Source of the DNA: an uncultured Alsobacter sp.
Lineage (GTDB): Bacteria > Pseudomonadota > Alphaproteobacteria > Rhizobiales > Beijerinckiaceae
Reading direction: 5' to 3'
Length of the DNA stretch: 60,685 bases
Assembly: GCF_945952055.1 (NCBI RefSeq)
Contig: NZ_CAMFHB010000039.1
Span: 1 to 60,685, forward strand
The position numbers and the translations under genes are program-made. Shown here in pieces: positions 28,968 to 57,280 of the stretch. The notes under the pieces are model-generated. The model was not told the DNA's origin, made no database searches, and saw only the letters and a program-made list of their open reading frames with translations. How positions within the stretch are numbered: position 1 is the first letter of the stretch; every line of letters starts with the position of its first letter.

Positions 28968-28983
28968 TTCACATCCGTGAAAC
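28968..28983. promoter_or_regulatory. Candidate IclR operator, site 1
   Basis: TTCAC-ATCC-GTGAA with a following AC. The 5-bp arms are perfect. It lies 27 bp before the IclR start and 148 bp before the divergent SDR gene, so it could control both. The same motif recurs at three other promoter regions in the window. Confidence 0.6.
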
Positions 28984-28991
28984 TCGTCCGG

Positions 28992-29010
28992 CCACCCCGC
29001 TGGGGGGTGG
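28992..29010. promoter_or_regulatory. GC-rich hairpin beside operator site 1
   Basis: CCACCCC (28992-28998) and GGGGTGG (29004-29010) form a 7-bp inverted repeat with a 5-base loop inside the divergent IclR/SDR promoter region. It could be a leader hairpin of the rightward transcript or a second protein site. Confidence 0.3.
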
Positions 29011-29130
29011 TTGTCCAAGAGACCGCATGACATGCTTTTCAATGTCAAGGCGATGGTGACGACCACCGAGCGGGCCAAAACGACGGTCCGGAGACGTAAA
29101 TCGGCCTCGCCGCAACGGGTAGGAGACGCG

Positions 29131-29889
29131 ATGACCGGGAGGCTTGCCGGGCGCGTAGCGCTTGTCACGGGTGGCGGACGCGGGATCGGACGGGCGATCA
29201 GCGAGGCCTATGCGCGTGAAGGCGCCAGGGTCGGCGTTCTCGATCTGAAGGCGGAAGTCGCGGCCGAGGCCGCCGACGCGATCCGCGCGGCCGGGGGCGA
29301 GGCGCTGCCCCTCACCGGCAACGTCGCCAACCGCGCCGACGTCTTCGCCGCCGCCGAGGCAGTGCGCCAGGCCTTCGGGCCGGTGACGATCCTTGTCAAC
29401 AACGCCATGTGGAACCGCTACGGGCCGCTCGAGGAGCAGACCGAGGTGATGATCGGCCGCATGATCGACGTCGGCTTCAAGGGGGTCATCTGGGGATACC
29501 AGGCGGTCCTGCCGCAGATGCGCGACGCGGGCGGCGGCGTCATCGTCAACATCGCCTCCCCGTCGGCCGTGATCGCGATGAAGCACGGCATCATGTACAG
29601 CGCCATCAAGGCCGCCGTGGCCGCCGCGACGCGCTCGGGCGCCGCCGAGTTCGGCCCCGACAACGTCCGCGTCGTGGCCATCGCACCGGGCCCGACGCAG
29701 ACCGACGGAGCCAATCTGGTCCTCACCGAGGAAGCCTGGGAACGCCGCCGCCAGCGGGTGCCGATCGGCCGCCTCGGCCAGCCGGTCGACATGGCCCACG
29801 CGGCCGTGTTCCTGGCCTCCGACGAGGCCTCCTTCATCACCGGCGACATGCTGTTCGTCGATGGTGGCATCACCTACGCCTTCTCATGA
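29131..29889 (+). CDS. Short-chain dehydrogenase/reductase
   Basis: 252-residue classical SDR. The cofactor motif VTGGGRGIGRAI is at residues 12-23, LVNNAMW replaces the usual NNAG, and the active site is NIASPSAVI with Tyr156 and Lys160 (YSAIK). It would oxidise a secondary alcohol or reduce a ketone with NAD(P)(H). ATG at 29131 preceded by AGGAGA. It is the first gene rightward of the IclR operator and is followed 84 bp later by the Liv-type binding protein, suggesting a role in the first steps on an imported alcohol. Confidence 0.9.
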   Translation: MTGRLAGRVALVTGGGRGIGRAISEAYAREGARVGVLDLKAEVAAEAADAIRAAGGEALPLTGNVANRADVFAAAEAVRQAFGPVTILVNNAMWNRYGPLEEQTEVMIGRMIDVGFKGVIWGYQAVLPQMRDAGGGVIVNIASPSAVIAMKHGIMYSAIKAAVAAATRSGAAEFGPDNVRVVAIAPGPTQTDGANLVLTEEAWERRRQRVPIGRLGQPVDMAHAAVFLASDEASFITGDMLFVDGGITYAFS

Positions 29890-29973: not shown

Positions 29974-31200
29974 ATGACTTCGACGAGGAAGACCGCCGGC
30001 CGGATCGCCGCCCTGATGGCCGCCACCGCGATCGCGGCGACCCCGCTGGCCGCCCGGGCCGCCGGCGACACGATCCGCATCGGCGTGATGAACGACATGT
30101 CCGGCCCCTATGCCGACAACTGCGGCCAGGGCTCCGTGACCGCGGCCAAGCTGGCCGTCGAGGACTTCGGCGGCGCCATCAACGGCAAGAAGATCGAGAT
30201 CGTCACCGCCGACGACCAGAACAAGCCCGACATCGGGCTCGCCACGGCCCGCCGCTGGGTCGAGAAGGACGGCGTCGACGCCATCGTCGGCTGCTCGATC
30301 TCGCCGATCGCGCTCGCGGTCTCCGACATCATGCGCGAGTTCAACAAGCCCTACATGCTGGCCGGCACGGCCTCGTCCGACACGACGAACTCCAAGTGCT
30401 CGCCCATGACCACCAACTGGGCCTACGACACCTACACGCTCTCGAAGGGCGCGGTGAAGGCGCAGATCGACCAGGGCATGGACAGCTGGTACTTCATCAC
30501 CGTCGACTACGCCTTCGGCAAGCAGTGGCAGGAAGACGCGACCAAGTTCATCACCGCCGCCGGCGGCAAGGTCCTCGGCACGTCGCTGCACCCGCTGAAC
30601 TCGAACGACTTCTCCTCGCAGCTGCTTCAGGCGCAGGCCAGCGGCGCCAAGGTGATCGTGCTCGCCAACTCCGGCTCCGACCTCGCCAACGCCCTCAAGC
30701 AGGCCAAGGAATTCGGCATCCTCGGCAGCAAGCAGCGCATCGCGCCGCTGGGCATCCTGATCAATGCCGTGCACGGCATCGGCCTCGACGCCACGCAGGG
30801 CCTCGTCATCTCGGCCGCCGCCTACTGGAACGCCAACGACGAGTCGCGCGCCTTCACCAAGCGCTACAACGCCGCCTTCGGCAACCGGATGCCCAACGAG
30901 TCCCAGCTCGTCACCTACTCGGCCGTGAACCACTACCTCAAGGCCGTGAAGGCCGCGAACTCGCTCGACGGCCAGGCGGTGATGGGCAAGATGCGCGAAC
31001 TGCCGGTCGACGACATGACCGTGAAGGGCGCCAAGATCCGCGAGGACGGCGTGGTCGCCCGCCCGATGATCGCCGCCCGCATCAAGAAGCCCGGCGAGCC
31101 CAAGGCCACCTGGGACTACTACGAGGTGATCGGTTCGATCTCGGCCGACGACGCCTGGCGTCCGCTCTCCGAGAGCGCCTGCCCGCTCGTCAAGAAGTAA
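29974..31200 (+). CDS. Liv-type ABC transporter substrate-binding protein
   Basis: 408-residue periplasmic binding protein of the branched-chain amino acid/amide/aromatic acid class (type I fold). A signal peptide ends near residue 30 (PLAARA then AGDTIRIG). The MNDMSGPYADNCGQGSVTAA opening and the VDYAFGKQWQEDA hinge region are typical. ATG at 29974 with AGGAGGG. The matching LivHMGF membrane and ATPase genes are not adjacent but lie at 37319-40624 on the other strand. Members near CoA-ligase genes usually bind aromatic or alicyclic acids rather than amino acids. Confidence 0.92.
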   Translation: MTSTRKTAGRIAALMAATAIAATPLAARAAGDTIRIGVMNDMSGPYADNCGQGSVTAAKLAVEDFGGAINGKKIEIVTADDQNKPDIGLATARRWVEKDGVDAIVGCSISPIALAVSDIMREFNKPYMLAGTASSDTTNSKCSPMTTNWAYDTYTLSKGAVKAQIDQGMDSWYFITVDYAFGKQWQEDATKFITAAGGKVLGTSLHPLNSNDFSSQLLQAQASGAKVIVLANSGSDLANALKQAKEFGILGSKQRIAPLGILINAVHGIGLDATQGLVISAAAYWNANDESRAFTKRYNAAFGNRMPNESQLVTYSAVNHYLKAVKAANSLDGQAVMGKMRELPVDDMTVKGAKIREDGVVARPMIAARIKKPGEPKATWDYYEVIGSISADDAWRPLSESACPLVKK

Positions 31201-31254: not shown

Positions 31255-32160
31255 ATGGCACAGTCCTCCCGCCTCACCACCGCCACCAGGATCTCGCCCT
31301 CGCAGGACATGCTGGGCGAGAGCCCGATCTGGGACCCGGACAGCCAGTGTCTCTTCTGGGTCGACGGGGTGTCCCGCCTGATCCGCAGCCACGACCCGTC
31401 GACGGGCATCTGCCGCTCGATCCCGGTGCCCTCCATGATCGGATCGATCGGCCTGGCCACCGGCGGCAAGCTGGTCGCGGGCCTCGTCGACGGGATCTAC
31501 CTCGTCGACCTCGAGACCGGCCAGTGCGACCCGGTGTTCAAGCCGGCGACGCCCGATGCCCGCGCCCGCTTCAACGACGGCAAGGTCGACCGCCAGGGCC
31601 GCTATGTCTGCGGCACCATGGGCATCTACGCCGAGCCGCGCGGGGAGCTCTACCGCGTCGACAGCCAGGGCCGGCACGACGTGCTCGCCAACGGCATCCG
31701 GATCGCGAACTCGCTGTGCTTCAGCCCCGACGGCGGCACCATGTATTTCGCCGACAGCCTGGACCGGGCGATCCGCGCCTACCGCTACAGCCCCGGCGAC
31801 GAACCGCTGGAGCACCCGCGCATCTTCGTCGACACCTCCGCCTTCAACTCGGGCCCCGACGGGGCCACGGTGGATGCGGAAGGCTATGTCTGGGCCTCGC
31901 TCGTCACGGTCGGCAAGATCGCGCGCTTCACGCCGACGGGACAGCTCGACCGGCTCATCGAGGCGCCGACCGACATGCCCTCCTGCGTCACCTTCGGCGG
32001 CCCGGACCTGACCACCCTCTTCGTCACCTCCATCAAGGATTCGGGCTCCGGCCGCGCCATCTCGCGCCACCCCGCCGGCGGCCATCTCTTCGCCATCGAC
32101 GGCCTGGGCGTGAAGGGACTGCCCGAACCGCGCTTCGGCGTGCGGCAGGCCGCGCCGTGA
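31255..32160 (+). CDS. SMP-30/gluconolactonase-like lactonase
   Basis: 301-residue six-bladed beta-propeller hydrolase. Metal ligands of the family are suggested by the glutamate in MLGESPIWDP, asparagine in ANSLCFSPDGG and aspartate in NSGPDGATVDAEGYVW. The family opens lactones, for example gluconolactone. In a locus that also encodes a Baeyer-Villiger monooxygenase, hydrolysis of a lactone made by that enzyme is attractive but unproven. ATG at 31255. The stop overlaps the GTG start of the next gene (GTGA). Confidence 0.88.
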   Translation: MAQSSRLTTATRISPSQDMLGESPIWDPDSQCLFWVDGVSRLIRSHDPSTGICRSIPVPSMIGSIGLATGGKLVAGLVDGIYLVDLETGQCDPVFKPATPDARARFNDGKVDRQGRYVCGTMGIYAEPRGELYRVDSQGRHDVLANGIRIANSLCFSPDGGTMYFADSLDRAIRAYRYSPGDEPLEHPRIFVDTSAFNSGPDGATVDAEGYVWASLVTVGKIARFTPTGQLDRLIEAPTDMPSCVTFGGPDLTTLFVTSIKDSGSGRAISRHPAGGHLFAIDGLGVKGLPEPRFGVRQAAP

Positions 32161-34262
32161 GCAGCGCGCTCGCGTCCCTGCTGTCGCCGCGCGCGATCGC
32201 CATCGTCGGTGCCTCGGACAGCCCCGCCCGCATCGGCGGCCGGCCTCTGCGCTACATGCTCGAAGCCGGCTTCGGCGGCACGATCTATCCCGTCAATCCG
32301 AGCCGCGAGACCGTGCAGGGGGTGAAGGCCTGGCCCTCGCTCGCCGCCCTCCCCGAAGCCCCCGACGTCGCCATCCTGGCCGTGCCGGCCGATGCGACCG
32401 AGAAGGCCGTCGCCGAATGCGCCGCCCGGGGCGTCAAGTCGGCCATCGTCTTCTCGGCGGGGTTCGCCGAGGCCGGCGACGACGGGGCTGCGCTGCAGAA
32501 CCGCATGACCGCGACGGCCCGCGCGGCGGGCCTGCGCCTGCTCGGGCCCAACTGCCTCGGCGTGTTCAACCCGTCGCAGCGCTTCTACGGCACATTCTCG
32601 GTGGTCCTGGACAACGCGTTCATCGCGCCGGGCCCCGTCGGCATCGTGTCGCAGAGCGGGGCCTACGGCGCCCACGTGGCGCATCTCGCCCGCAACCGCG
32701 GGCTGGGCGTCAGCCAGTGGATCACCACCGGCAACGAGTGCGACATCGACCTCGCCGAGGCGCTGGCCCACGTCGTCGAGCAGGACGACACCCGCGTCGT
32801 CATGGCCTATGCGGAGGGCGTGCGGAACCGCGACGCCTTCATCGCCGCGCTGGAACGTGCGCGCGCGCTCGGCAAGGCGATCGTCTTCATGAAGACGGGC
32901 CGCTCAGCCGTGGGCGCCGAGGCCGCCGCGTCGCACACGGCCGCGCTCGCCGGCTCCGACGCCGTGTTCGACGCGGTGCTGCGCCAGTTCGGCGTCCACC
33001 GCGCCCGCACCACGGCCGAGCAGATCGACGTCGCCTATGCCTGTGCCTCCGGCCGCTACCCGGCCGGTGACCGCATCGGCATCTTCACCATGTCGGGCGG
33101 CTTCGGCATCCAGCTCGCCGACGATGCCGGCGAGGCGGGCCTCGACGTGGCCCCGATGCCCGAGAACGCCCAGGCGGAACTGAAGGCGCTGCTGCCCTAT
33201 TGCTCGCCGCGCAATCCCGTCGACGCCACCGCGCAGGCGGTGACCGAACTCTCGATCCTGTCGAAGTCGGTCGACAGCATGCTGCGCCTCGGCGGCTACG
33301 ACCTGTTCTCGATTATCCTGGGCACCGGGCCCGCGACCAAGACCTTCGCGCTACCGCTGCGCGAGGCGCTGGCCAAGGCGATGGCCGGGCACGACGACGT
33401 CATCCGCGCGGCGACCATGTCGGTGCCGCGCGAGGCGGCGGAGATCTACGAGAAGGACGGCTTCCTCGTCTACGAGGACGGCTCGGCGCTGGCCAACGCG
33501 CTGGGCGCCCTCGTCCGCTTCAGCCGGAGCTTCGAACGAGCCCGGACCGGGACGAAGCCGGCGCCCGGCGAAAGGCTCGCCCTCCCGGCGGGCCCCATCA
33601 GCGAACGCGCCGCCAAGGACATCCTGCGCCAGGCCGGCATCCCGTTCCCACGCGAGATCCTGGTGCCGCCGGGCGGCGATGCCGGCAAGACCGCGGCCGA
33701 GATCGGCTTCCCGGTCGTCCTCAAGGTGTCCTCGCCCGACATCGCCCACAAGACCGAGGTCGGCGGCGTCGTGGTCGGCGTGAAGGACGAGGCCGAGGCG
33801 CGCAGCGCCGCCGCCGCCATCCTCGCGCGCTGCGCCGAGAAGGCGCCGGGCGCCGGCATCGAGGGCATCCTCGTCGCGCCCATGGTCAAGGGCGGCGTGG
33901 AGACCATCGTCGGCGTCGTCGACGACCCCACCTTCGGTCCCGTGGTCATGTTCGGCCTCGGCGGCATCTTCGTGGAAGTGCTGAAGGACGTGACCTTCCG
34001 CGTGGCGCCCTTCGACGCCGGCGAAGCGCGCCGGATGATCGACGAGATCCGCGGCCGGGCCCTGCTCGACGGCGTGCGCGGCGCCACGCCCTGCGACGTC
34101 GACGCGCTCGCCGACCTCCTCTCCGCGCTCTCGCGCTTCGCCGCCACCCATGGCGACCGCATCGAGTCCATCGACCTCAACCCGGTGCTCGTCCTGCCGC
34201 AGGGCCAGGGCATCGCGCCGCTCGATGCGCTGATCGTGCTGAAGCCGGAGACATCGCCATGA
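32157..34262 (+). CDS. ADP-forming acyl-CoA synthetase (acetate-CoA ligase family, fused alpha-beta)
   Basis: 701-residue NDP-forming acyl-CoA synthetase. An N-terminal CoA-binding domain (about 1-130; AIAIVGASDSPARIGGRPL) is followed by two succinyl-CoA-ligase-like domains, the first with the phospho-histidine candidate His260 in AASHTAALAGSD, and a C-terminal ATP-grasp domain (about 480-700; AGIPFPREILVPPGGDAG and VVLKVSSPDIAHKTEVGG). It activates a carboxylic acid with CoA and ATP, giving ADP. The start is GTG at 32157, overlapping the lactonase stop. Longer upstream frames lie inside other genes. It may activate the acid released by the lactonase. Confidence 0.9.
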   Translation: MSSALASLLSPRAIAIVGASDSPARIGGRPLRYMLEAGFGGTIYPVNPSRETVQGVKAWPSLAALPEAPDVAILAVPADATEKAVAECAARGVKSAIVFSAGFAEAGDDGAALQNRMTATARAAGLRLLGPNCLGVFNPSQRFYGTFSVVLDNAFIAPGPVGIVSQSGAYGAHVAHLARNRGLGVSQWITTGNECDIDLAEALAHVVEQDDTRVVMAYAEGVRNRDAFIAALERARALGKAIVFMKTGRSAVGAEAAASHTAALAGSDAVFDAVLRQFGVHRARTTAEQIDVAYACASGRYPAGDRIGIFTMSGGFGIQLADDAGEAGLDVAPMPENAQAELKALLPYCSPRNPVDATAQAVTELSILSKSVDSMLRLGGYDLFSIILGTGPATKTFALPLREALAKAMAGHDDVIRAATMSVPREAAEIYEKDGFLVYEDGSALANALGALVRFSRSFERARTGTKPAPGERLALPAGPISERAAKDILRQAGIPFPREILVPPGGDAGKTAAEIGFPVVLKVSSPDIAHKTEVGGVVVGVKDEAEARSAAAAILARCAEKAPGAGIEGILVAPMVKGGVETIVGVVDDPTFGPVVMFGLGGIFVEVLKDVTFRVAPFDAGEARRMIDEIRGRALLDGVRGATPCDVDALADLLSALSRFAATHGDRIESIDLNPVLVLPQGQGIAPLDALIVLKPETSP

Positions 34263-34430: not shown

Positions 34431-34515
34431 GGCGTGGGGGCGGTTGGGGCAACAGGACCCAAGCTTTCACAAAGCGGACCACGGGTGGCGTGAGACGTTC
34501 GAAAGGCCTTTCGAG

Positions 34516-35037
34516 ATGACTGAATCCCGGCTCACCGAGCTCATGGATCGCGAGGCGATCCGCGACTGCATCTACCGCTATTGCCGCGGCGTCGATCGGG
34601 GCGACGAGGCGGCGCTTCGCTCGTCCTACTGGCCGGGCGCGACGGACAGGCACGGGCCGTTCAACGGCACGGCCGAGGGCTTCATCGAGTGGGCCAGGAG
34701 CATCTGGAAGACCGGCCCCCGCAACGTCCACCACGCGACCAACATCCTGATCGAATTCCAGGGCCCGACGACCGCCGCCGTCGAGACCTACTTCATCGCC
34801 ATGCAGCGTGGTGCCGGCGCCGACGGCGTCGTGCGGCAGGTGGTGATGTCCGGACGCTACTGCGACCTCTTCGAGAAACGCGGCGCCGAGTGGCGCGTGG
34901 CCAGGCGGACGGTCGTCTACGATTGGGTCGATCCGCAGGCGCCCCACGAGGGCAGCGACGCCGATCGCTTCGGCCCGCGCCAGCCCATCGGCGGCTTCTT
35001 CCCCGACGATCCGGTCTACGCGATCGGTCAGAACTGA
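34516..35037 (+). CDS. SnoaL-like / nuclear transport factor 2-fold protein
   Basis: 173-residue small alpha-beta barrel protein of the SnoaL_4 type. [34 protein letters not shown] matches the family opening in its first 34 residues; [12 protein letters not shown] and [20 protein letters not shown] are also typical. Such proteins serve as cyclases, isomerases or dehydratases on small aromatic or steroid-like ligands, or are subunits of ring-hydroxylating systems; none is specified here. ATG at 34516 has no strong ribosome binding site. It is first in a three-gene cassette with a flavin reductase and a tandem SDR. Confidence 0.85.
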
Positions 35038-35046: not shown

Positions 35047-35571
35047 ATGACGGTGCAGACGACCCGTGCAGGTGAGGGCGAACGGCCGGTCGTGGCGACC
35101 GACGCGTTCCGCAACGCCATGGGACACCTGGCGATGCCGGTGGCCGTGGTCGCGGCCGGCGACGGCGGCGAGCGCGATGCGGTGACGACCACCACGCTCT
35201 GCTCGGCCAGTGTCGATCCACCGACGCTCATCGTCAGCGTCAACCGCCACTCTCCGCTGAACGCGCTCGCCGAACGCAGCCGCGCCTTCTCCGTCAACGT
35301 GCTCACCGACGAACAGGCCACCATCGGGCGGGTCTTCTCCGACGCACGCCGCACGGGCGAGCGCCGGTTCGGCCAGGGCACCTGGACGACCGGCGCGACG
35401 GGATCGCCGCTGCTGGAGGACACGCTCGCCACCTTCGACTGCGAACTCGTCCAGACGCTCGACTACGGCCCGAACCGCATCCTCATCGGACGGGTGGTGG
35501 CGATCGGCTTCGGCGAGAAGCAGCCCCTGCTCTACCGCGACGGCTTCTTCCGCCGCCTCACCACGTCCTGA
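35047..35571 (+). CDS. Flavin reductase-like domain protein
   Basis: 174-residue FMN-binding flavin reductase family protein. FRNAMGHLAMPVAVVAAGDG begins the split-barrel at residues 20-40; VTTTTLCSASVDPPTLIVSV and FSVNVLTDEQATIGRVFS are conserved flavin-pocket segments. Members supply reduced flavin to a partner monooxygenase or act as flavoprotein reductases. No two-component flavin monooxygenase is encoded beside it, so its partner is elsewhere or it acts alone. ATG at 35047, nine bases after the SnoaL-like stop. Confidence 0.88.
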   Translation: MTVQTTRAGEGERPVVATDAFRNAMGHLAMPVAVVAAGDGGERDAVTTTTLCSASVDPPTLIVSVNRHSPLNALAERSRAFSVNVLTDEQATIGRVFSDARRTGERRFGQGTWTTGATGSPLLEDTLATFDCELVQTLDYGPNRILIGRVVAIGFGEKQPLLYRDGFFRRLTTS

Positions 35572-35594: not shown

Positions 35595-37169
35595 ATGCCG
35601 GTGTCCGCGCAGACCGTGATCGTGACCGGAGCGGCCGGCGGCATCGGCCGCGCCCTCGTGGAGGAGTTCGCCGCACGCGGCGCCCGCGTGATCGCGGTCG
35701 ACCTCGCCTCGGCCAGGCCCGAGGATGCGATCGCGGGCCTCGGCGCCCGCCACCGGGCCTATGGCTGCGACCTCGGCAGCGAGGCGGAGATCGTCGCCCT
35801 GTTCGAGACGCTCGACCGGGAGGTCGGCACCGTCGACGTCCTGATGAACAACGCGGCCATCGGACCGATCATGTCCGATACGCGCAAGACGGACTTCGCG
35901 CATTTCCAGCTGACGGTGCGGGTGAACACGATCGGACCGTTCGTGATGGCGCGGGAAGTGGCGCGGCGCATGGCGCCAGGCGGCGTGATCGTCAACACGG
36001 CTTCCCTCGCGGGCGTGCTCGCGAACCCGCGCCGCAATGCCTACGCCGCCTCCAAGGCCGCCCTCATCTCGCTGACGAAGTCTCTGGCCTGCGAATGGGC
36101 CAGCCGCGGGATCCGGGTGAACGCCGTGGCGCCGGGCTACGTGCGCACGCCGATGGTCGCCGAGTTGGAGCGGACGGGGAAGGCCGACATCCCGCTGGTG
36201 CGCCGTCGCGTCCCCATGGGCCGCATGGGCCGGCCGGACGAGATCGCCTCGGCGGCCGTGTTCCTCGCCTCGCCAAAGGCCCGCTACGTCACAGGCTCGG
36301 TGCTCGCGGTCGACGGCGGCTGGATGTCCTTCAACCAGCCCGGCCACGCCCACCCCGCGGTCGAAGGCGTTCCGGCCGACGAGCTCGGCCGGCCGAAGGC
36401 CTCATCGGAACCACGGGTCGTGGTCGTCGTGGGCGGCGGACGCGGCATCGGCGCGGCGATCGCCGCCCGCTTCGCCGCCGGCGGGGACCGGGTGGTCGTG
36501 GCGGACAAGGACGGCGCTGGCGCCGTGACGGCGTCCCTCGGGCCGCAGCACCTGGGCGTGACCGTCGACATCACCGACGAGGCCCAGGTTCGCGATGCCT
36601 TCACGGTCATTCGCGAGTGCTTCGGCCATGTCGACGTGCTGGTCAACGACGCCGCCGTCGCCGACGTCTTCAAGCCGGCGCTGGAGCAGACCGGCGCGGA
36701 CCTCGCGGCCACGCTCGACGTGAACCTCGCCGGCACCTTCCTGTGCACCCGCGAGGCGCTGGGGCTCATGGAGGGCCGCAAGGGCGTGATCCTGAACCTG
36801 GGCTCGATCAACACCTTCCTGCCCTTCGCCCCACGGCACGGCTACGGCGCCTCGAAGGCCGCGGTCGACGTGTTCACCCGGTGCCTCGCCGGCGAGCTCG
36901 GCCCGCAGGGCCACCGCACGGCGACGATCGCGCCGGGCTACATCCGCACGCCCGGCGTCGCGGAGCTCGAGACGTCGGGGCGCATCGACGCGGGCAAGAT
37001 CCGCCGGCGCATTCCCATGGGCGACATGGGCCGGCCAGAGGACATCGCCGACGCCGCCTGGTTCCTCGCCTCCCCGGCCGCCAGCTACGTCAACGGCGGC
37101 ATCCTCTACGTCGATGGCGGCTGGACGTCGTTCGGCAACGCCGGGGATGCGAGCACGGGCGAGGATTGA
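35595..37169 (+). CDS. Tandem (fused) double short-chain dehydrogenase
   Basis: 524-residue protein carrying two complete SDR domains. Domain 1 (about 5-245): VTGAAGGIGRAL, NNAAIG, NTASLAG, Tyr150/Lys154 (YAASK). Domain 2 (about 275-505): VVGGGRGIGAAI, NDAAVAD in place of NNAG, LGSINTF, Tyr417/Lys421 (YGASK). Each ends with the VDGGW motif. Both active sites look intact, so this may carry out two successive or reverse redox steps, or two steps with different cofactors. ATG at 35595 preceded by GGAGGAA. The domains differ enough that the fusion is not a very recent duplication. Confidence 0.9.
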   Translation: MPVSAQTVIVTGAAGGIGRALVEEFAARGARVIAVDLASARPEDAIAGLGARHRAYGCDLGSEAEIVALFETLDREVGTVDVLMNNAAIGPIMSDTRKTDFAHFQLTVRVNTIGPFVMAREVARRMAPGGVIVNTASLAGVLANPRRNAYAASKAALISLTKSLACEWASRGIRVNAVAPGYVRTPMVAELERTGKADIPLVRRRVPMGRMGRPDEIASAAVFLASPKARYVTGSVLAVDGGWMSFNQPGHAHPAVEGVPADELGRPKASSEPRVVVVVGGGRGIGAAIAARFAAGGDRVVVADKDGAGAVTASLGPQHLGVTVDITDEAQVRDAFTVIRECFGHVDVLVNDAAVADVFKPALEQTGADLAATLDVNLAGTFLCTREALGLMEGRKGVILNLGSINTFLPFAPRHGYGASKAAVDVFTRCLAGELGPQGHRTATIAPGYIRTPGVAELETSGRIDAGKIRRRIPMGDMGRPEDIADAAWFLASPAASYVNGGILYVDGGWTSFGNAGDASTGED

Positions 37170-39132: not shown

Positions 39133-39135
39133 CCG

Positions 39136-48073: not shown

Positions 48074-48952
48074 ATGAGCATCAGGTTCGACGGCCGCGTG
48101 GCCATCGTCACCGGGGCGGGCAACGGGCTGGGGCGCTGCCATGCGCTGGGGCTCGGCGAGCGTGGGGCCAGGGTCGTCGTCAACGACATGGGCCCGGGCG
48201 CCGATGCGGTGGCCGAGGAGATCCGCGCCGCCGGAGGCGAGGCCATCGCGATACACGCCGACGTGTCGGATTTCGCCGCGACGCAGGCCATGGTGGCCGA
48301 GACGCTGGCGCGCTGGGGCCGCATCGACATCCTGGTCAACAATGCCGGGATCCTGCGTGACCGGAGTTTCGCGAAGCTCGAGCCGGCGGACTTCGCCAAG
48401 GTGCTCGACGTGCATCTCACGGGCTCGTTCAACTGCACCAAGGCCGCGTGGGAGACGATGCGCAGCCAGGCCTATGGCCGCATCGTGTTCACCTCGTCTG
48501 GGTCCGGCCTCTTCGGCAACTTCGGCCAGGCCAACTACGGCGCCGCCAAGACCGGCATGGTCGGCCTGATGAACGTGCTCCACATCGAGGGCCAGAAATA
48601 CGGGATCCGCGTCAACGCCCTCGCCCCCACGGCGCAGACGGCCATGACCAACGGCCTGTTCTCGCAGGAGCACGCCGCCCTGCTCGGCCCCGAGACGATC
48701 ACGCCGGGCCTGCTCTACCTCGTCAGCGAGGACGCGCCGTCGCGCGTCATCATGGGCGCGGGCGGCGGCTGCTTCACGCGCATCGTCATCCGCGAGACGC
48801 AGGGCGTGTGCTTCGACCCGCAGGCGCTCACGCCCGAGGCCGTCGCCGACCAGTGGGGCGCCATCGCCGACGAGACCGGTGCCCTCGACATTCCCGACGC
48901 CTTCTCGCAGCCTGTCCGCTTCGCGACGATGGCGGCCGCCAGGACCAAGTGA
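48074..48952 (+). CDS. SDR, (R)-3-hydroxyacyl-CoA dehydrogenase-like (MFE-2 type)
   Basis: 292-residue SDR. The cofactor motif VTGAGNGLGRCHALGLGERG and RVVVNDMGPG strongly recall the dehydrogenase domain of multifunctional enzyme type 2 (17-beta-hydroxysteroid dehydrogenase 4 type). NNAGILRDRSF and FTSSGSGLFGNFGQANYGAA supply the Asn, Ser, Tyr, Lys active site. With the MaoC hydratase immediately upstream it makes a split version of the eukaryotic fusion, able to hydrate an enoyl-CoA and oxidise the (R)-3-hydroxyacyl-CoA. ATG at 48074, 22 bp after the MaoC stop. Confidence 0.88.
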   Translation: MSIRFDGRVAIVTGAGNGLGRCHALGLGERGARVVVNDMGPGADAVAEEIRAAGGEAIAIHADVSDFAATQAMVAETLARWGRIDILVNNAGILRDRSFAKLEPADFAKVLDVHLTGSFNCTKAAWETMRSQAYGRIVFTSSGSGLFGNFGQANYGAAKTGMVGLMNVLHIEGQKYGIRVNALAPTAQTAMTNGLFSQEHAALLGPETITPGLLYLVSEDAPSRVIMGAGGGCFTRIVIRETQGVCFDPQALTPEAVADQWGAIADETGALDIPDAFSQPVRFATMAAARTK

Positions 48953-48993
48953 CGCCCGACGCCCGAAACCGCCCGCGCCCGGAGATCGATGCG

Positions 48994-50187: not shown

Positions 50188-51054
50188 TCAGCGCCGGTAG
50201 GCCGCGTTCCCGGACCCGGCCAGCATGGCCGGGGTATCGGAATAGCCCGGCTCCGCCGATGGCCCGAACGCGGCCATGACGGCGTCGACACGCTCGCGGA
50301 CCAGCGGCTCGTATTCGGGATGCGTGAACACGTGCAGCTCGTTGGCGCGGACGGCCTGCACCACCCGTTCACCGACGTTGCGGGCCTGCATCTTCATCGG
50401 CTGGACCGGAGGCGTGAAGGGCCGACCGGCCGCGAGCGCGGAGCGCTCGGCCGACCGCTCGACGAAGTCGGACCGGACGCCGCCCGGGCAGAGGATGCTG
50501 ACGCCAATGCCCACCGGCAGCAGTTCCGCGGCCAGCGATTCCGACAGGGCCACGACGCCGAACTTGGAAGCCGAGTAGCCCGCCAGACCGGCCGGCGCGA
50601 GGAAGCCGGCCATGGAGGCCGTGTTGACGACGTGGCCGCCCCGCCCCCGGGCAATCATCCCGGGCACGACGGAGCGCACCCCGAGAAAGACGCCCGTGAG
50701 ATTGACGTCGAGGAGCAGTTGCCAGTGCTCGAGAGGGATATCGGCGAAGCCGGTCGGCCCTGAAGCGGCAGAGCGCCCCATGCCCACGCCGGCGTTGTTG
50801 CACAGGATGTCGATCCCGCCGTGCACCTCCTCGATGCCGGCGACGACCCGCGACCAATCCGCCGGCGAACGCACGTCGAGGCCGAAGGTCAGCGTTCCCA
50901 GCGGCAGCGAGCGTGCGGCCTCCTCGAGCGCCACCCCGTCGATGTCGGTGAGCGCGAGGTGAGCCCCGGCCGCGGCGAAGGCCTGCGCCAACCCCAGGCC
51001 GATGCCCCGCGCGGCACCCGTGACCAGTACGACCTTGCCGGCGATGTCGTCCAT
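50188..51054 (-). CDS. Short-chain dehydrogenase/reductase
   Basis: 288-residue classical SDR. VTGAARGIGLGLAQAFAAAG at about residues 10-29, CNNAGVGMG, NTASMAGFL and the YSASKFG active site. The final 60 residues contain RARELHVFTHP-like AVRANELHVFTHPEYEPLV, seen in several SDRs of this type. ATG at 51054 with CGGAGAG upstream; an alternative ATG at 51072 overlaps the EthD stop. It is last in the minus operon and converges on the flavin oxidoreductase gene. Confidence 0.9.
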   Translation of the reverse strand: MDDIAGKVVLVTGAARGIGLGLAQAFAAAGAHLALTDIDGVALEEAARSLPLGTLTFGLDVRSPADWSRVVAGIEEVHGGIDILCNNAGVGMGRSAASGPTGFADIPLEHWQLLLDVNLTGVFLGVRSVVPGMIARGRGGHVVNTASMAGFLAPAGLAGYSASKFGVVALSESLAAELLPVGIGVSILCPGGVRSDFVERSAERSALAAGRPFTPPVQPMKMQARNVGERVVQAVRANELHVFTHPEYEPLVRERVDAVMAAFGPSAEPGYSDTPAMLAGSGNAAYRR

Positions 51055-51068
51055 GGCTGCTCTCCGGT

Positions 51069-51779
51069 TCATGAGCGCGAGCTGCCCGCGAACCATTCGG
51101 TCACGGAGCCGATCTGGTATTTCTCGACGCGGGCGGAGGTCTTCGCGGCGTGGGCGGCCGTAGCCTGGCCGGCGGCGGAGTCGCGCAGGGCGGACAGGAC
51201 GTCGGGGCTCTCGTACCAGAGCTCCACCGCGCCATCGAACGGGAACGCCGTGTCGTCGACCGCCTCCGACCAGTTGCGCCAGCGCCCCGTGACGAGGTGC
51301 TGTCGGTACCCCCTGATGGGCTTCACCGCCTGGACGAGCGGCACGTGCACGACGCGCCACTCGTACAGGAACGCCTCGTGGGAATAGCCGTCGGCCCGCC
51401 GGATGATCGACATGGTCTTCACGGCACGCGGAAGGTCGCGGGGCGGTGAGATGACGACCCGTTGCTCGACCTCCAGCACCATGGTCATCGCCGTGACCTT
51501 CGCCTCCGCCGCGCGCAAACCCTGCCCGGCGGGCGACGCCCCGAGCTCCGCGACCCCCGGTCCAGGATCGAGGATGCATTGGACGAAACCGGCGACCGGC
51601 AGCGCCGGGTGCTTTGGGTCGGTGTCTCGGGCGAAGCGATCCGCGGCCCGGTTCCACGCGCAGTAGCGTAGTCCCGGAAGCCGTCGGACCTCGGGCAGGC
51701 AGGTCTGCGTCCACGCATCGCGCACTGCGTCCGGATCGTCCCCGTCGCGACACAGCACCACCCCGATCAGGTTCAGCAT
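51069..51779 (-). CDS. EthD-domain protein (double EthD-like)
   Basis: 236-residue protein of the dimeric alpha-beta barrel superfamily. The C-terminal half, MSIIRRADGYSHEAFLYEWR then HVPLVQAVKPIRGYRQHLV, is a clear EthD domain; the N-terminal half (LIGVVLCRDGDDPDAV) looks like a degenerate second copy. EthD proteins accompany ether and ring degradation operons, with roles that are not well defined. ATG at 51779, 28 bp after the binding-protein stop. Confidence 0.82.
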   Translation of the reverse strand: MLNLIGVVLCRDGDDPDAVRDAWTQTCLPEVRRLPGLRYCAWNRAADRFARDTDPKHPALPVAGFVQCILDPGPGVAELGASPAGQGLRAAEAKVTAMTMVLEVEQRVVISPPRDLPRAVKTMSIIRRADGYSHEAFLYEWRVVHVPLVQAVKPIRGYRQHLVTGRWRNWSEAVDDTAFPFDGAVELWYESPDVLSALRDSAAGQATAAHAAKTSARVEKYQIGSVTEWFAGSSRS

Positions 51780-51807
51780 CGCACGTCCTCCCTTTTCGAG
51801 GTTTCGA

Positions 51808-53325
51808 TCACTTCCAGCTCGCCAAGTAGAAGCGTGCCCAGCTGTCGGACGAAGGCTTGAAGTCGAGGGACTTCGTCATGCCGTAGGTCTTGACGTAGGT
51901 GAACAGCGGCAGCTGGTAGACCCGATCGCTGACGAGTGCGAACGCCTTCTCGTAGGCGGCCTTGCGCTGATCCGCGTTGCTGTTGCTGACCGCAGCCTTC
52001 ACCAGCGCGGTGACCTCTTCGTCGCGCGCCTGGTCCAGCGCCGTGCCGCCGAAGAAATACTGGAGGTAATAGGATGGGTCTCCGATGTCGCCGCCGCCCC
52101 AGCGACCGAGGTTCAAGGGCAGCTCGCCGCGCTGGAACATGGGAAAGAGGGCGCTGATCTGCATCTGCTCGATCTGCGCCTTGATGCCGACCGCACCGAG
52201 GTAGTTCTGCACGGCCGCGACCCAGGAGGGTGCCAGGTAGTTGTAGAGCTTGATCGAGAAGCCGTCCTTGTAGCCCGCCTCCTCCAAGAGGGCCTTGGCC
52301 TTGGCCGGATCATAGGCGAAGGCCCGTGCCTTGCCCTGGTCGCAGGCGAACTGCTGCTCGTAGCAGGCAATGTTCAGGACCTTCGAGCCGCCGGGCTGGA
52401 ACTGCCGTGCCATGGCCTGGCGGTCGATCGCATAGGCGATGGCCTGGCGGACCTTGACGTTCTTGAGCGGGCTCTGGGGATTGTCGCGGCCCGCGCCGTT
52501 GAGGGTCAGGTAGACCAGGGAGTTCACCGGCGTAGCCAGCGTCTGCACGTTCGGCATCCGCGACAGGCTCTGCAACTGGTCGGCGGCGACGTCCTCGATC
52601 CAGTCGGCTTTGCCGCCGATGAGCTCGGCCATCTGCGCGGTCGGATCGGCGACAGCGCGGAAGATCACGGTGCGGATGGCGGGCTTGGGCTTCGGCCCGG
52701 CGAAGTAGCCGTCGAAACGCTCGGTGACGATCTCGCCGACGCCATCGAGCTTGACGATCTTGTAGGGGCCCGTTCCGACCGGCTTCTTCGCATACTCGTC
52801 GGCGCCCACCTTCTCGCGATAGGCCTTCGGCCAGATCGGCGTGGTGGCGGCCAGGAACTCCAGCGCCGCAGGGAACGGCGTCTTCAGCTTCAGGCGCACG
52901 GAAAGATCGCCGGTCTTCTCGGCGGAGGCGATGTGGGTGAAGTTGCTCGGGTTGGCGACTTTGCTCCCCGGCGCGATCACGGTCTGGATCGTGTAGACGA
53001 CGTCGTCGGCGGTGAAGGGGTCCCCGTTGTGGAAGGTGACGCCGGGCCGCAGCTCGAAGTCGATGGTGAGATCATCGACCTGCGTCCACTTGACGGCAAG
53101 AAGCGGCTGCATGGCGCCGGACTCGGGATCGCGGTGCACGAGCGTGTCCCAGGCGTGCTTCTGCAGCATCACACCCGATCCCTGACCGTTGTAGTAGGGG
53201 TCGATGTTGGCCAGCGCGTCGCGGATCGTGACCCGGAGGGTGTCGTCCGCCTTGCCGGCCCAGGCCGGCGACAGGGATGCCAGCAGGATGGCCGTCGTGG
53301 TCATTGTCAGTCCAAGGCGCTTCAT
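51808..53325 (-). CDS. Family 5 solute-binding protein (third importer)
   Basis: 505-residue periplasmic binding protein. The signal peptide is MKRLGLTMTTTAILLASLSP with cleavage near AWA-GKA (residue 23). SBP_bac_5 landmarks: GVTFHNGDPFTADDVVYTI and VGTGPYKIVKLDGVGE. ATG at 53325. Unusually it comes after its permease and ATPase genes, 16 bp behind the OppF-type ATPase. It shares an operon with EthD and SDR genes, suggesting that the importer brings in a catabolic substrate rather than peptides. Confidence 0.92.
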   Translation of the reverse strand: MKRLGLTMTTTAILLASLSPAWAGKADDTLRVTIRDALANIDPYYNGQGSGVMLQKHAWDTLVHRDPESGAMQPLLAVKWTQVDDLTIDFELRPGVTFHNGDPFTADDVVYTIQTVIAPGSKVANPSNFTHIASAEKTGDLSVRLKLKTPFPAALEFLAATTPIWPKAYREKVGADEYAKKPVGTGPYKIVKLDGVGEIVTERFDGYFAGPKPKPAIRTVIFRAVADPTAQMAELIGGKADWIEDVAADQLQSLSRMPNVQTLATPVNSLVYLTLNGAGRDNPQSPLKNVKVRQAIAYAIDRQAMARQFQPGGSKVLNIACYEQQFACDQGKARAFAYDPAKAKALLEEAGYKDGFSIKLYNYLAPSWVAAVQNYLGAVGIKAQIEQMQISALFPMFQRGELPLNLGRWGGGDIGDPSYYLQYFFGGTALDQARDEEVTALVKAAVSNSNADQRKAAYEKAFALVSDRVYQLPLFTYVKTYGMTKSLDFKPSSDSWARFYLASWK

Positions 53326-53341
53326 GGGGGCTTTCCTCCTG

Positions 53342-54364
53342 TCAGGGGCCAAGGCCTGCATGGACCTGGCTCGTTGCTTCTCGGGATGCGGTCTCGGGAG
53401 CGAGGATGCATTCGACCAGGTGCCCGGCGTCGACCCGCAGCGGCGGCGAAGCGTCGGCGCAGGCGGGCAGCGCGCTGGGGCAGCGCGGGTGGAACCGGCA
53501 TCCCGGCGGAATGGCGGCGGGGTCCGGGAAACCCTCGCCGAGCGGGATGCGAGGAATGCCTTTGCCGGGCTCGGGCGTCAGGACCGACTGCAGGAGTGCG
53601 GCGGTGTAGGGGTGGCGAGGGGAGCCGAAGAGTTCGGCCGTCGGCGCGGCCTCGACGATGCGGCCGAGATACATCACCGCCACGTGGGTCGCGATGTGCT
53701 CGACCACCGCGAGATTGTGGCTGATGAAGACCAGCGTCAGATTGAGCTCGCGCCGGAGCGCCTGCAGCAAGTTCAGGATCTGCGCCTGGACGGACACGTC
53801 GAGCGCGCTCGTGGGCTCGTCGCAGACGACGATACGGGGCTTGAGGACGAGAGCCCGCGCGATGGCGACGCGCTGGCGCTGCCCACCCGACATTTGCCCC
53901 GGGTAGCGCTCGCCGACGGCGGGGTCCAGCCCCACGAGCGCAAGCATCTCCGAGACGCGCCGCGCGCGTTCCTCGCGCGGTACGTCCCCCTGCGCCACCA
54001 GCGGGAGAGCCACGATGTCGCGCACGCGCTGGGTCGGGTTCAGCGACGAGTACGGATCCTGGAAGACCTGCTGGATGAGCCGGGCGCGTTGCCTGCGGTC
54101 CGCTTCGGCCAGGCTGCGGCCGGCGATGCGGACGTCCCCGGCCGTAGGCCGCAGCAGGCCGGTGATCAAGCGGGCCAGGGTGGACTTGCCCGACCCGGAC
54201 TCGCCCACGATGCCAAGCACCTCGCCATGGCTCACGTCGAAGGATACGCCGTCCACCGCGCGCACCGTTGCATGCGTCGAGAGAAGCCCCCCGCCCCGGA
54301 CGAAATCGCGGCGCAGGCCGCGCACCGAGACGGCCGGACCGGCCTCGTCGATCAGCGCTGTCAC
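53342..54364 (-). CDS. Oligopeptide-type ABC ATPase (OppF-like, third importer)
   Basis: 340-residue ATPase with Walker A VGESGSGKST, Q-loop [14 protein letters not shown], signature [15 protein letters not shown] and Walker B IVVCDEPTSALD. The C-terminal domain has PPGCRFHPRCPSALPAC. The start is GTG at 54364 overlapping the OppD stop (GTGA); more upstream frame lies inside that gene. Confidence 0.92.
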   Translation of the reverse strand: MTALIDEAGPAVSVRGLRRDFVRGGGLLSTHATVRAVDGVSFDVSHGEVLGIVGESGSGKSTLARLITGLLRPTAGDVRIAGRSLAEADRRQRARLIQQVFQDPYSSLNPTQRVRDIVALPLVAQGDVPREERARRVSEMLALVGLDPAVGERYPGQMSGGQRQRVAIARALVLKPRIVVCDEPTSALDVSVQAQILNLLQALRRELNLTLVFISHNLAVVEHIATHVAVMYLGRIVEAAPTAELFGSPRHPYTAALLQSVLTPEPGKGIPRIPLGEGFPDPAAIPPGCRFHPRCPSALPACADASPPLRVDAGHLVECILAPETASREATSQVHAGLGP

Positions 54365-55335
54365 GACGCCTGCCCCTGCAGCTCGGACGACAGCCGGCAC
54401 AGGTAGCGATGCTGTGGCCCCTCCTCCCGCGGCATGATCGTGTCCTCGCATCCGCGGTCGGCCAGGCCGCAGCGGTCGCGAAACCCGCAGCCGCGGAACG
54501 CCGCGGTGATCCTGGGGACCGTCCCGGGGATGGCCTTCAGCTGATCGCCCGGTCGCAGCTTCCCCGGCACGGGAATGCTGTCGAGGAGGCCGCGGGTGTA
54601 GGGATGCATGGGTCGGCCGAACAGGGCCTCGGCCGTCCCGCTCTCCACGATCTCGCCCGCGTACATCACCGAAACCCGGTCAGCCATGCGTGCGACGACG
54701 CCAAGATCGTGGGTGATGAGGAGGATCGCGAGCCCCGTCTCCTTTTGCAGATCCTGCAGAAGGCGCAGGATCTGGGCCTGCACCGTGACGTCGAGCGCCG
54801 TGGTCGGCTCGTCCGCGATGAGCACGTCCGGCTCGCACATGAGTGCCATCGCGATCATCACGCGCTGGCGCAGGCCGCCGGAGAGCTCGTGGGGGTACTG
54901 CGCCAGCCGCAGCCCTGGATTGGCGATACCGACCCGGGCGAGGAGGTCTGCAGCGCGGTCGCGTGCCTGCAACCGGCCCGCGCCTCGGTGCCGACGATAC
55001 ACCTCGGACAATTGGTCGCCGACCGTGTAGGCGGGATTGAGGCTGGTCATCGGCTCCTGGAAGATCATGGCGATGCGGTCGCCCCGCAGCTGCGCCATCC
55101 GGCGCTCCGAGGCGCGCGCGATGTCCTCGCCGGCGAGCCTGATCCCGGCCGCCGTGCGCGCTGCGCCGCGCGCCAGCAAGCCCATCACCGCGAGCGAGGT
55201 GACCGACTTGCCGCACCCGGATTCGCCCACCAGTCCGAGGGTCTCGCCATGGCCGAGGTCGAGGGAGATGCCGCGCACGGCAAGCGTGCCGTCGCGAAAA
55301 CCGACCCTGAGATCCTGGACGGCGAGCACGCTCAT
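54361..55335 (-). CDS. Oligopeptide-type ABC ATPase (OppD-like, third importer)
   Basis: 324-residue ATPase with Walker [12 protein letters not shown]-loop FQEPMTSLNPAYTV, signature [15 protein letters not shown] and Walker [13 protein letters not shown]. The C-terminal oligopeptide domain carries FRGCGFRDRCGLADRGCE. ATG at 55335, overlapping the DppC stop by ATGA. Confidence 0.93.
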   Translation of the reverse strand: MSVLAVQDLRVGFRDGTLAVRGISLDLGHGETLGLVGESGCGKSVTSLAVMGLLARGAARTAAGIRLAGEDIARASERRMAQLRGDRIAMIFQEPMTSLNPAYTVGDQLSEVYRRHRGAGRLQARDRAADLLARVGIANPGLRLAQYPHELSGGLRQRVMIAMALMCEPDVLIADEPTTALDVTVQAQILRLLQDLQKETGLAILLITHDLGVVARMADRVSVMYAGEIVESGTAEALFGRPMHPYTRGLLDSIPVPGKLRPGDQLKAIPGTVPRITAAFRGCGFRDRCGLADRGCEDTIMPREEGPQHRYLCRLSSELQGQAS

Positions 55336-56177
55336 CGAGCATGCCCTCCCGCCACGAGGTCGCGCAGCCCGTCGCCGAGGATATTGATCGCCAGCACCAG
55401 GGTGAAGAGCGCCACGCCGGGGATCGTGATGACCCAGGGCATGAAGAACATCTGGTCGCGCGCCTCGGCGATCATCAGCCCCCACGACGGCAGCGGCGGA
55501 GGAACGCCGAGCCCCAGGAACGACAGCGCGGCTTCCAGCAGGATGGCGATCGCAAGCTCGAGCGTCATGACGACGACGAGGTGCGGGAGAATGTTGGGCA
55601 GGACCTCGCGCAGGAGGATGTGCGGCAGCGACGCTCCGCACAGCCGCGCCGCCTCGATGAACTCGCGGTGGCGGACCTGCATGGTGGTCGTGCGCGCGAC
55701 CACGGCGAAGCGCTCCCACAAAAGGAGCCCGAGGGTGAGCATCACGACCACGAGCGACGTGCCGGTCAGTGCCACCACCGTGAGCGCCACCAGGATGAGG
55801 GGGATCGACAGCCGACAGGTCACGACGATCATGACCGCATCGTCGAGCCAGCCGCCGGCATAGCCACCCGCCATGCCCAGCCCGACCCCGATCATCCCCG
55901 AGAGGATGACCGTCACGGCTCCGATCAGCAGCGAGATCCTCGCGCCGTAGAGGAGGCGCGAGAGATAGTCCCGGCCCAGTTGGTCCGTCCCGAGCGGATG
56001 TCCCGACAGGGACCCCTCGGCCCAGAATGGCGGGGCGAGGCGCTGGTCGAGGTTCTGCAGGAAGGGATCGTGGGGCGCGATCCAGGGGGCGAGCAAGGCA
56101 AGGAGCACTGTCGCGCCGAGCACCGATCCACCGATGACCAGGGCCGCTTTCGCCGAAGGAGTGAGGCGCCCGCTCAT
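55332..56177 (-). CDS. Dpp/Opp-type ABC permease (DppC-like, third importer)
   Basis: 281-residue permease. First helix LVIGGSVLGATVLLALLAPW; HPLGTDQLGRDYLSRLLYGA marks DppC; EAA loop RHREFIEAARLCGASLPHIL; ALSFLGLGVPPPLPSWG follows. ATG at 56177 in an ATGA overlap with the DppB stop. Confidence 0.92.
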   Translation of the reverse strand: MSGRLTPSAKAALVIGGSVLGATVLLALLAPWIAPHDPFLQNLDQRLAPPFWAEGSLSGHPLGTDQLGRDYLSRLLYGARISLLIGAVTVILSGMIGVGLGMAGGYAGGWLDDAVMIVVTCRLSIPLILVALTVVALTGTSLVVVMLTLGLLLWERFAVVARTTTMQVRHREFIEAARLCGASLPHILLREVLPNILPHLVVVMTLELAIAILLEAALSFLGLGVPPPLPSWGLMIAEARDQMFFMPWVITIPGVALFTLVLAINILGDGLRDLVAGGHAR

Positions 56178-57091
56178 GCGATCCTCAGCCTCGGGTCGAT
56201 GAGCGCGTTCAGGAGGTCCGCGATCAGCGTCAGGAGGATGAAGATCGTCGCCAGCAGCAACACCACCGCCTGGACGACCGCGAAGTCCCCCTTGCTGATC
56301 GCCTCCCACGCCAGGAAGCCCATGCCGTGGAGGGCGAAGATGGACTCGATCACCACGGACCCGCCCAGCATGAAGCCGAACTGGACCGCCGCAACCGTCA
56401 CGACCGGCATGGCCGCATTCCGCAGCGCATGCTTGAGGAGCACGCTGGCCCAGGACAGGCCCTTCGCACGCGCGGTCCTCACATAGTCGGAGGCCAGGGC
56501 CTCGACCATGCCCGCCCGCGTGAGCCGCATCAGGACGGGGACGGACGACGCCGCGAGAACGATGCCCGGCATGACGTAGCCTTGCCAGTCGTCCAGCCCG
56601 GAGATCGGCAGGAGCTGCCAGTAGACGCCCACCCAGATCATCATGAGCAGGGCGAGCCAGAAGCTCGGCATGGCCTGGCCCACCAGGCCGACGAGACCGA
56701 TCAGGCGGTCCCAGACGGAGCCGTTCGCGACCGCAGCCGCGATCCCCAGCGGCACGCCGACCAGGACGGCCAGCACGAGCCCGACCGCCCCGAGCGTCAG
56801 CGTGACGGGCAGGCGTTTGGCGAGCAGGTCGGCGACGGGCTCGCGATAGAGGTAGGAGGTCCCGAGGTCGCCGTGCAGCAGATTGCCGAACCAGACGGCG
56901 AACTGGACTGGGAGGGGGCGATCGAAGCCATAGCGTGCGCGAACCGTCGCAACATCTTCAGCGGTTGCATTGGGACCCGCGATGGAGACGGCCAGGTCGC
57001 CCGACAGGCGCGTCAGGAGGAAGCTCACGGTCACGACGATCAGGAACACGGCGAAAGCCAGCACGAGACGTCGCAGGATGAAGCGGATCAT
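56174..57091 (-). CDS. Dpp/Opp-type ABC permease (DppB-like, third importer)
   Basis: 305-residue permease. MIRFILRRLVLAFAVFLIVV begins the first helix, followed by the ARYGFDRPLPVQFAVWF signature. EAA loop ASDYVRTARAKGLSWASVLL. It is the first gene of the seven-gene minus operon (57091 to 50188). The perfect palindrome at 57265-57280 lies 174 bp upstream, and the gap also holds the repeated 3' end of the flavin oxidoreductase gene. Confidence 0.92.
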   Translation of the reverse strand: MIRFILRRLVLAFAVFLIVVTVSFLLTRLSGDLAVSIAGPNATAEDVATVRARYGFDRPLPVQFAVWFGNLLHGDLGTSYLYREPVADLLAKRLPVTLTLGAVGLVLAVLVGVPLGIAAAVANGSVWDRLIGLVGLVGQAMPSFWLALLMMIWVGVYWQLLPISGLDDWQGYVMPGIVLAASSVPVLMRLTRAGMVEALASDYVRTARAKGLSWASVLLKHALRNAAMPVVTVAAVQFGFMLGGSVVIESIFALHGMGFLAWEAISKGDFAVVQAVVLLLATIFILLTLIADLLNALIDPRLRIA

Positions 57092-57264
57092 GGATCGAGC
57101 GATCCCCGCAGCCCTGGACTCGCGGCGATGCCGTCTCTGTCCATCCTCGCGCTCCCCCGGTCCGCGTGTTGGCCGCCCGCTCTCGGGGCTCATCCAACCG
57201 CCATGACGCCAGAATGCTCCGTCGGGGCGAAGCGCGACAGGACGAACAGGTCCGCGTTGGGAAA

Positions 57265-57280
57265 TTCACATGAGTGAAAC
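57265..57280. promoter_or_regulatory. Candidate IclR operator, site 4
   Basis: TTCAC-ATGA-GTGAA followed by AC: perfect 5-bp arms identical to site 1 at 28968, differing only in two spacer bases. It is upstream of the DppB-led operon and between two convergent-looking gene ends. The rest of the 57092-57330 gap shows no gene except the tiny frame at 57270-57317. Confidence 0.6.

Follow-up and report, generated by a model that had tools for sequence, protein, structure and literature searches.

We find that a short palindrome, TTCAC-N4-GTGAA, stands in front of catabolic and transport genes on a contig of an uncultured Alsobacter sp. (NZ_CAMFHB010000039.1, 60,685 nt, the whole of which is called the window here), and that at two places, named A and B below, it very probably forms the operator of an IclR-family protein encoded at 28162–28941. 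From sequence comparison we predict an accessory IclR regulon comprising the regulator gene itself, a unit encoding a short-chain dehydrogenase (SDR), LivK, a lactonase and a synthetase, the divergent monooxygenase and ligase-to-Liv units, and perhaps a Dpp-type transporter unit. The protein belongs to the IclR family by its N-terminal HTH_IclR domain (PF09339, 38.7 bits, cut-off 22) and its C-terminal effector domain (PF01614, 41.4 bits, cut-off 24).

The palindrome and its copies in the window

Perfect copies of the palindrome lie at 28968–28981 and 57265–57278, and copies with one mismatch at 45568–45581 and 45596–45609. All four had been pointed out in an initial annotation of this DNA, which placed their ends 1–2 bases too high; the motif is 14 bp long, and its extended form, with one extra base on each side, is TTTCACNNNNGTGAAA. 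In this extended frame the sites are as follows.

28966..28983, no strand: operator A (predicted), GGTTCACATCCGTGAAAC, in the gap between the divergent IclR and SDR genes
45566..45583, no strand: operator B1 (predicted), CTTTCTCATCTGTGAAAA, the top window score in the 35-site matrix (23.6 bits)
45594..45611, no strand: operator B2 (predicted), GCGTCACAGATGTGAAAG, its centre 28 nt from that of B1
57263..57280, no strand: operator C (tentative), AATTCACATGAGTGAAAC, about 78 nt before DppB, 22.4 bits in the 35-site matrix

Measured from its centre, A stands about 34 nt upstream of the start of IclR and 156 nt upstream of that of the SDR gene; the B sites lie about 93–199 nt from the ligase and monooxygenase starts. 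All four sites are non-coding, in a window of which about 5.7% is non-coding according to a gene table made by hand. The earlier description of them as intergenic and in front of operons holds because alignments of orthologues shift the SDR start to 29131 (from a TTG at 29011) and the start of the AMP-dependent ligase to about 45404 (from 45593).

With up to one mismatch the 14-mer occurs eight times in the window against 0.52 expected, and no shuffled sequence reached eight. For TTTCACNNNNGTGAAA with up to two mismatches the four reported sites are the only ones, against 0.29 expected, and no shuffle reached four. We scored sites with a weight matrix trained on 35 distinct sites in front of orthologues of IclR, the monooxygenase and the ligase, all from outside the window (the 35-site matrix, consensus ATTTCACATATGTGAAAT; at least one of its training sites, the CTGGCAC... 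site of locus L135, may have matched by chance next to the true one). In this matrix the four window sites take the top four places, at 23.6, 22.4, 20.2 and 19.4 bits, ahead of a fifth at 14.1; 60 random 60.7-kb sequences of matched dinucleotide make-up gave a single hit of at least 19 bits. A second matrix, made from 14 distinct IclR-upstream sites in order to avoid circularity (the IclR-only matrix), gives 22.9 bits for C, 22.7 for B1, 20.3 for A and 17.5 for B2. The four other one-mismatch 14-mers, at 18372, 19257, 40533 and 51890, which the initial annotation did not mention, all lie within genes (transporters according to Pfam) and reach at most 9.4 bits in the 35-site matrix.

Conservation upstream of orthologous genes

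A species genome collection was scanned with a two-sequence IclR alignment, which detects only genes with its peptide patterns. It returned 22 IclR loci, 54–74% identical, under titles that include Bradyrhizobium, Mesorhizobium, Microvirga, Gemmobacter and Pararhodobacter. Every one of the 22 has at least one further cluster gene beside IclR, and most of the loci have many. A version of the palindrome is found upstream of IclR in 22/22, starting 27–103 nt before the start of the match and scoring 15.8–31.9 bits in the 35-site matrix, the top score of the locus in 16 and the second in six; many of these sites had trained that matrix. Five loci (L048, L057, L065, L066 and L067) carry the site although no IclR-upstream site from them is in the matrix, and at L065 and L066, the two most diverged, the word is altered yet in place. 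The held-out plasmid orthologue of Pseudosulfitobacter (L171) has a site of 26.4 bits 37 nt before IclR, where the next best score in 19.9 kb is 12.9. More distant IclR homologues have a site of at least 15 bits within 250 nt in four of 34 cases (L018, L022, L030 and L045; the count leaves out L044, a short locus, and L017, taken as the same as L066), so that the word is for the most part tied to this IclR group.

Among the presumed targets, an SDR gene diverges from IclR over the corresponding gap in 13 of the 22 loci and lies about 1.4–1.5 kb away in five, while a SnoaL_4 gene takes its place in four. Sites corresponding to B1 were found upstream of both monooxygenase and ligase orthologues. 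With the IclR-only matrix, a site of at least 12 bits within 350 nt is found for 14 of 19 monooxygenase orthologues and, in the same genomes, for none of 11 paralogues, and the ligase orthologues have one in 13 of 15 versus none of 15 paralogue controls; the 35-site matrix gives identical counts. The controls are the paralogues that were fetched as loci, 11 and 15, and not every paralogue listed; one ligase control (L144, with 324 nt of upstream DNA available) scores 9.1 bits, below the 12-bit threshold. Of the seven orthologues without such a site, six carry one at a greater distance upstream in their gene unit: in four monooxygenase loci (L072, L076, L077 and L078) a SnoaL_4 gene comes before the monooxygenase, and the copy stands between this gene and IclR, 715–824 nt upstream of the monooxygenase, and in two ligase loci (L141 and L142) the ligase directly follows a monooxygenase gene with a site of its own. 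In L050, L052 and L061 extra copies were seen within the operon, near +7.4 kb from IclR, where they separate the ligase gene from the acyl-CoA dehydrogenase gene after it.

The initial annotation had proposed that the IclR protein regulates itself and the SDR, ligase-to-Liv, monooxygenase and DppB-led units, and had named promoter comparison in relatives as a check on which the idea could fail. The motif is conserved at the IclR, monooxygenase and ligase orthologues and absent from the paralogue controls, which supports the first four of these assignments; the DppB-led operon received no such support.

Distribution in the genome

The genome measures 6.62 Mb, of which the window (contig 39) makes up 0.92%. 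It contains 15 perfect copies of the 14-mer. For 11 of them base composition suggests that the frame is coding (weakly so for L007), and two of the remaining four are in the window. With up to two mismatches TTTCACNNNNGTGAAA has 49 occurrences in the genome and with up to one mismatch six, of which the window holds four and three, respectively; the four window sites take four of the top six scores among the 49 candidates in the 35-site matrix. A motif common in coding DNA throughout the genome would have spoken against the initial proposal. The scan finds few copies beyond the window, most of them in frames that look coding, and the proposal survives it.

Two other high-scoring sites were considered and gave no clear regulon member: C37:48717 lies inside a small AT-rich frame, and C18:23294 between genes that by eye resemble those for a DNA glycosylase and a signalling protein. 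A pair of related palindromes, TTTTACCCGGATGAAA and TTTCACCCGGGTAAAA, stands 28 nt apart at G000:C72:20912-20955 (L160), right before an apparent minus-strand gene start. Its centre, CCCGG, suggests a different regulator, and we set the pair aside as unrelated.

In the genomes of relatives (13 of the 21 orthologue genomes, a set that does not include that of L054, were searched) we found 37 exact copies of TTTCAYNNNNGTGAAW; a hand count puts 18 of these no farther than about 40 kb from the cluster. Five of the 13 genomes share one identical word, TTTCATATTGGTGAAA, with a single copy each outside the cluster (G062:C62, G067:C57, G068:C85, G070:C19 and G076:C66); it is perhaps the site of another regulator or a second target, and the contigs G067:C57 and G068:C85 also carry paralogous monooxygenases. 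Two further exact palindromes lie on the IclR-cluster contig of a Pararhodobacter bin (G074:C27:147723 and 150134).

Genes around the sites

The genes from the regulator to the end of the DppB-led unit are these.

28162..28941, minus strand: IclR-family regulator, 259 aa, HTH_IclR and IclR_C both over Pfam cut-offs
29131..29889, plus strand: short-chain dehydrogenase, first gene divergent from IclR (Pfam; start by orthologue alignment)
29974..31200, plus strand: LivK-type solute-binding protein (Pfam/NCBIfam)
31255..32160, plus strand: SMP-30/gluconolactonase-type lactonase (Pfam/NCBIfam)
32157..34262, plus strand: ADP-forming acyl-CoA synthetase-like protein, 701 aa (Pfam/NCBIfam)
34444..35037, plus strand: SnoaL_4-domain protein (Pfam/NCBIfam)
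35047..35571, plus strand: flavin reductase (Pfam/NCBIfam)
35595..37169, plus strand: double short-chain dehydrogenase, 524 aa (Pfam/NCBIfam)
37319..40930, minus strand: Liv-type permeases (frame 37319–38896, and 38248–39132) and two ATPases (39136–39906 and about 39842–40930), some starts uncertain
40642..43714, minus strand: acyl-CoA dehydrogenase, enoyl-CoA hydratase, acyl-CoA dehydrogenase (Pfam/NCBIfam)
43773..45404, minus strand: AMP-dependent acyl-CoA ligase, first gene of the ligase-to-Liv unit (start by orthologue alignment)
45696..47339, plus strand: flavin monooxygenase of Baeyer-Villiger type, first gene of the plus-strand unit
47500..50178, plus strand: MaoC-like protein, short-chain dehydrogenase, FMN oxidoreductase of old-yellow-enzyme type, last start uncertain
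50188..57193, minus strand: DppB-led unit of two permeases, two ATPases, SBP_bac_5 binding protein, EthD protein and SDR, tentative regulon member

The closest solved relatives of the monooxygenase are phenylacetone monooxygenase, the nearest, and the steroid and cyclohexanone monooxygenases. Sigma-70 scans gave a single weak promoter-like match, at 45635–45664, downstream of both B sites. A possible further site, AATTGAAATTCGTCAAAA at 25851–25868 (14.1 bits in the 35-site matrix), lies about 75–90 nt before the gene for a methyl-accepting chemotaxis protein (25941–28136) that adjoins IclR. Another stretch of catabolic genes occupies positions 1–24410. It includes regulators of LysR and RpiR type, Dpp-type transporters and genes for GDPD, the dihydroxy-acid dehydratase family, a CoA-transferase and an amidohydrolase; in this stretch no score exceeds 10.0 bits in the 35-site matrix.

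Comparison with known IclR operators and regulators

For IclR group 1, the portions of Suvorova and Gelfand (2021, PMC8222616) used here give the consensus GKTYCRY-W3-4-RYGRAMC, with sites mostly 20–80 nt before genes and tandem sites 18–22 nt apart; they name Liv and Dpp transporters among the regulated genes and describe 20-nt tandem boxes in Bradyrhizobium. The arms of ATTTCACATATGTGAAAT fit this consensus except at the first and last base, which are W in the published WTT subgroup too. The arms of site A fit fully and its centre, ATCC, is not all A/T, while C departs at two arm positions and B1 and B2 at three each. The present sites share with group 1 the half-site WTTYCRY, the dyad symmetry and the position, the centre distances of A and C falling within the 20–80 nt and those of the B sites outside it. 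They differ in the centre, which is 3 nt in the published WTT subgroup (WTT-11-AAW) and 4 nt here, a combination that falls outside the four main subgroups as listed in those portions. A partner box 20 nt away, as published for tandem IclR sites, was found in seven of nine Bradyrhizobium IclR promoters with a pattern that missed the other two; in six of these promoters (L053, L055, L056, L058, L059 and L064) the partner reads TTCAT-N2-GTGAA, with a centre of 2 nt instead of 4. An IclR-family repressor of phenanthrene degradation, PheR, likewise controls an operon for uptake and catabolism, but the core reported for it in the part of PMC13273656 considered here, GCAACG, is unlike the palindrome of the window.

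The protein resembles PcaR/PcaU/PobR and BhcR, also of the IclR family, over nearly its whole length, but scores well under the NCBIfam cut-offs, at 67.8 bits against 284.75 for the PcaR/PcaU/PobR subfamily (TIGR02431) and 70.1 against 350. The closest solved relative by sequence is PDB 3d3o, a putative IclR-family regulator that we take to be from Acinetobacter (E 4e-56 over residues 80–255); it differs in being a 178-residue chain that covers the effector half and in having no named function. A search of open-access papers returned nothing on 3D3O and no instance of the exact consensus. Neither the cluster with the Baeyer-Villiger-type monooxygenase nor this switch was found described in open-access literature, where a search with the gene set gave just a general monooxygenase review.

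Alternative explanations

Palindromes of this length serve many regulator families, and another protein encoded elsewhere, for example of TetR or GntR type, could bind the word with IclR as just one of its targets. We consider this improbable. The site adjoins IclR in all 22 loci, though these were picked by their IclR gene, whose presence there is by selection; the word matches the group-1 consensus of PMC8222616, as far as quoted above; and it has been altered but kept in place at the two most diverged IclR loci. Moreover, the frames that were scanned from 25 to 60 kb showed no other regulator domain, and around the LysR and RpiR genes (694–1752 and 13760–14659) the 35-site matrix gives no score over 10.0 bits. 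Read as a whole, 45566–45611 by eye forms an interrupted inverted repeat whose 15-nt arms match at all positions but one, and could be taken for an RNA hairpin, an attenuator or terminator, in place of two operators. This seems very unlikely to us, as each arm is itself a palindrome like the single sites elsewhere, the palindrome is present in orthologous promoters, and a terminator scan found just a separate 5-pair stem, at 45549–45562 (one found versus a shuffle mean of 0.4). Chance clustering of a short palindrome is the least credible explanation of all: one comparable intergenic site does exist elsewhere in the genome (C18:23294), but conservation measured with paralogue controls, the held-out orthologue L171 and the clustering in the genome speak against it, and we regard it as ruled out by the paralogue controls and the shuffles.

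Several observations have to be set against IclR binding at A and B. The 28-nt spacing of B1 and B2 lies outside the 18–22 nt preferred in the cited portions of PMC8222616, and one monooxygenase orthologue, L082, has no site anywhere in its locus. The intergenic C18:23294 is a good site in the same genome that adjoins genes of unrelated look, and 19 of the 37 exact TTTCAYNNNNGTGAAW places in relatives are outside the cluster, which weighs against perfect specificity. B2 by itself is not outstanding, because the site at 25851 reaches 17.1 bits in the IclR-only matrix, almost equal to B2. As to procedure, the 12- and 15-bit thresholds were set once the scores were known, and the 35-site matrix scored many sites on which it had been trained, a circularity that is lifted for the monooxygenase and the ligase because the IclR-only matrix was used there.

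A further point on this side concerns the DppB-led unit: with either matrix a site is found in none of the seven closest DppB relatives and in none of 23 more distant ones. It is quite possible that the regulon consists of A and B only; the palindrome at C would then be unrelated or due to chance, and the DppB operon would not be under this IclR protein. The seven closest relatives (50–62% identity) reach at best 5.9 bits in the 35-site and 8.8 in the IclR-only matrix, and in the genomes compared they lie on contigs other than that of the cluster monooxygenase (G077 has no such monooxygenase). On the other hand, these relatives may not be true orthologues, and their matches start 24–34 residues into the query, which means that about 250–280 nt of real upstream DNA was covered. 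Site C is second in the window by the 35-site matrix and first by the IclR-only matrix, it is non-coding and close to DppB, and hits as strong were rare in random sequences. Since none of the closest relatives carries a site, the case for membership comes from the quality and place of site C, and while we rather favor site C as an IclR operator, we list the DppB unit as a weak, tentative member of the regulon.

Proposed regulation and significance

With the IclR protein as the presumed binder, site A would provide for autoregulation and for control of the divergent SDR/LivK/lactonase/ADP-forming synthetase unit; most likely the protein represses itself there while controlling both units. The B1/B2 pair, between the AMP-ligase-to-Liv and monooxygenase units, would control both of these, and site C may bring in the DppB-type transporter unit. 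We speculate that the weak promoter-like match downstream of the B sites would suit activation of the monooxygenase unit. A compound of the pathway probably binds the C-terminal domain of the regulator and alters its action at the sites, which would switch together uptake (Liv, Dpp), conversion of a ketone or enone (SDR, FMN reductase, Baeyer-Villiger-type monooxygenase, lactonase) and breakdown of the CoA thioester. The family names of the genes suggest that a compound is taken up and oxidized to a ketone, that Baeyer-Villiger insertion turns this into a lactone, and that the lactone is opened and the product broken down in a CoA-dependent way. Regulation of this kind is an ordinary, known type of switch for a breakdown pathway.

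In a set of 59 genomes, the window's own included, one of the 58 related genomes has a close IclR orthologue (57% identity; the next best has 38%) and none of the three from the same genus does; the cluster is thus accessory and has probably spread horizontally. In L171 the IclR cluster is on a 250-kb Pseudosulfitobacter plasmid, in line with such spread.

The gene set of SDR, FMN ene-reductase, Baeyer-Villiger monooxygenase, SMP-30 lactonase, CoA ligation and beta-oxidation might serve a pathway of cyclic-ketone or terpenoid-like type. We tentatively raise the possibility that this IclR group and its cluster, spread through several alphaproteobacterial lineages, represent an undescribed regulon for an undescribed pathway of that type, with a WTT half-site and 4-nt centre outside the four main published spacing subgroups of IclR and with two transporter types recruited. 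The findings offer a testable operator and list of targets for the IclR group of Bradyrhizobium, Mesorhizobium, Microvirga, Gemmobacter and relatives. The operator would permit a screen for effectors, which could reveal the substrate of the pathway and possibly yield a biosensor.

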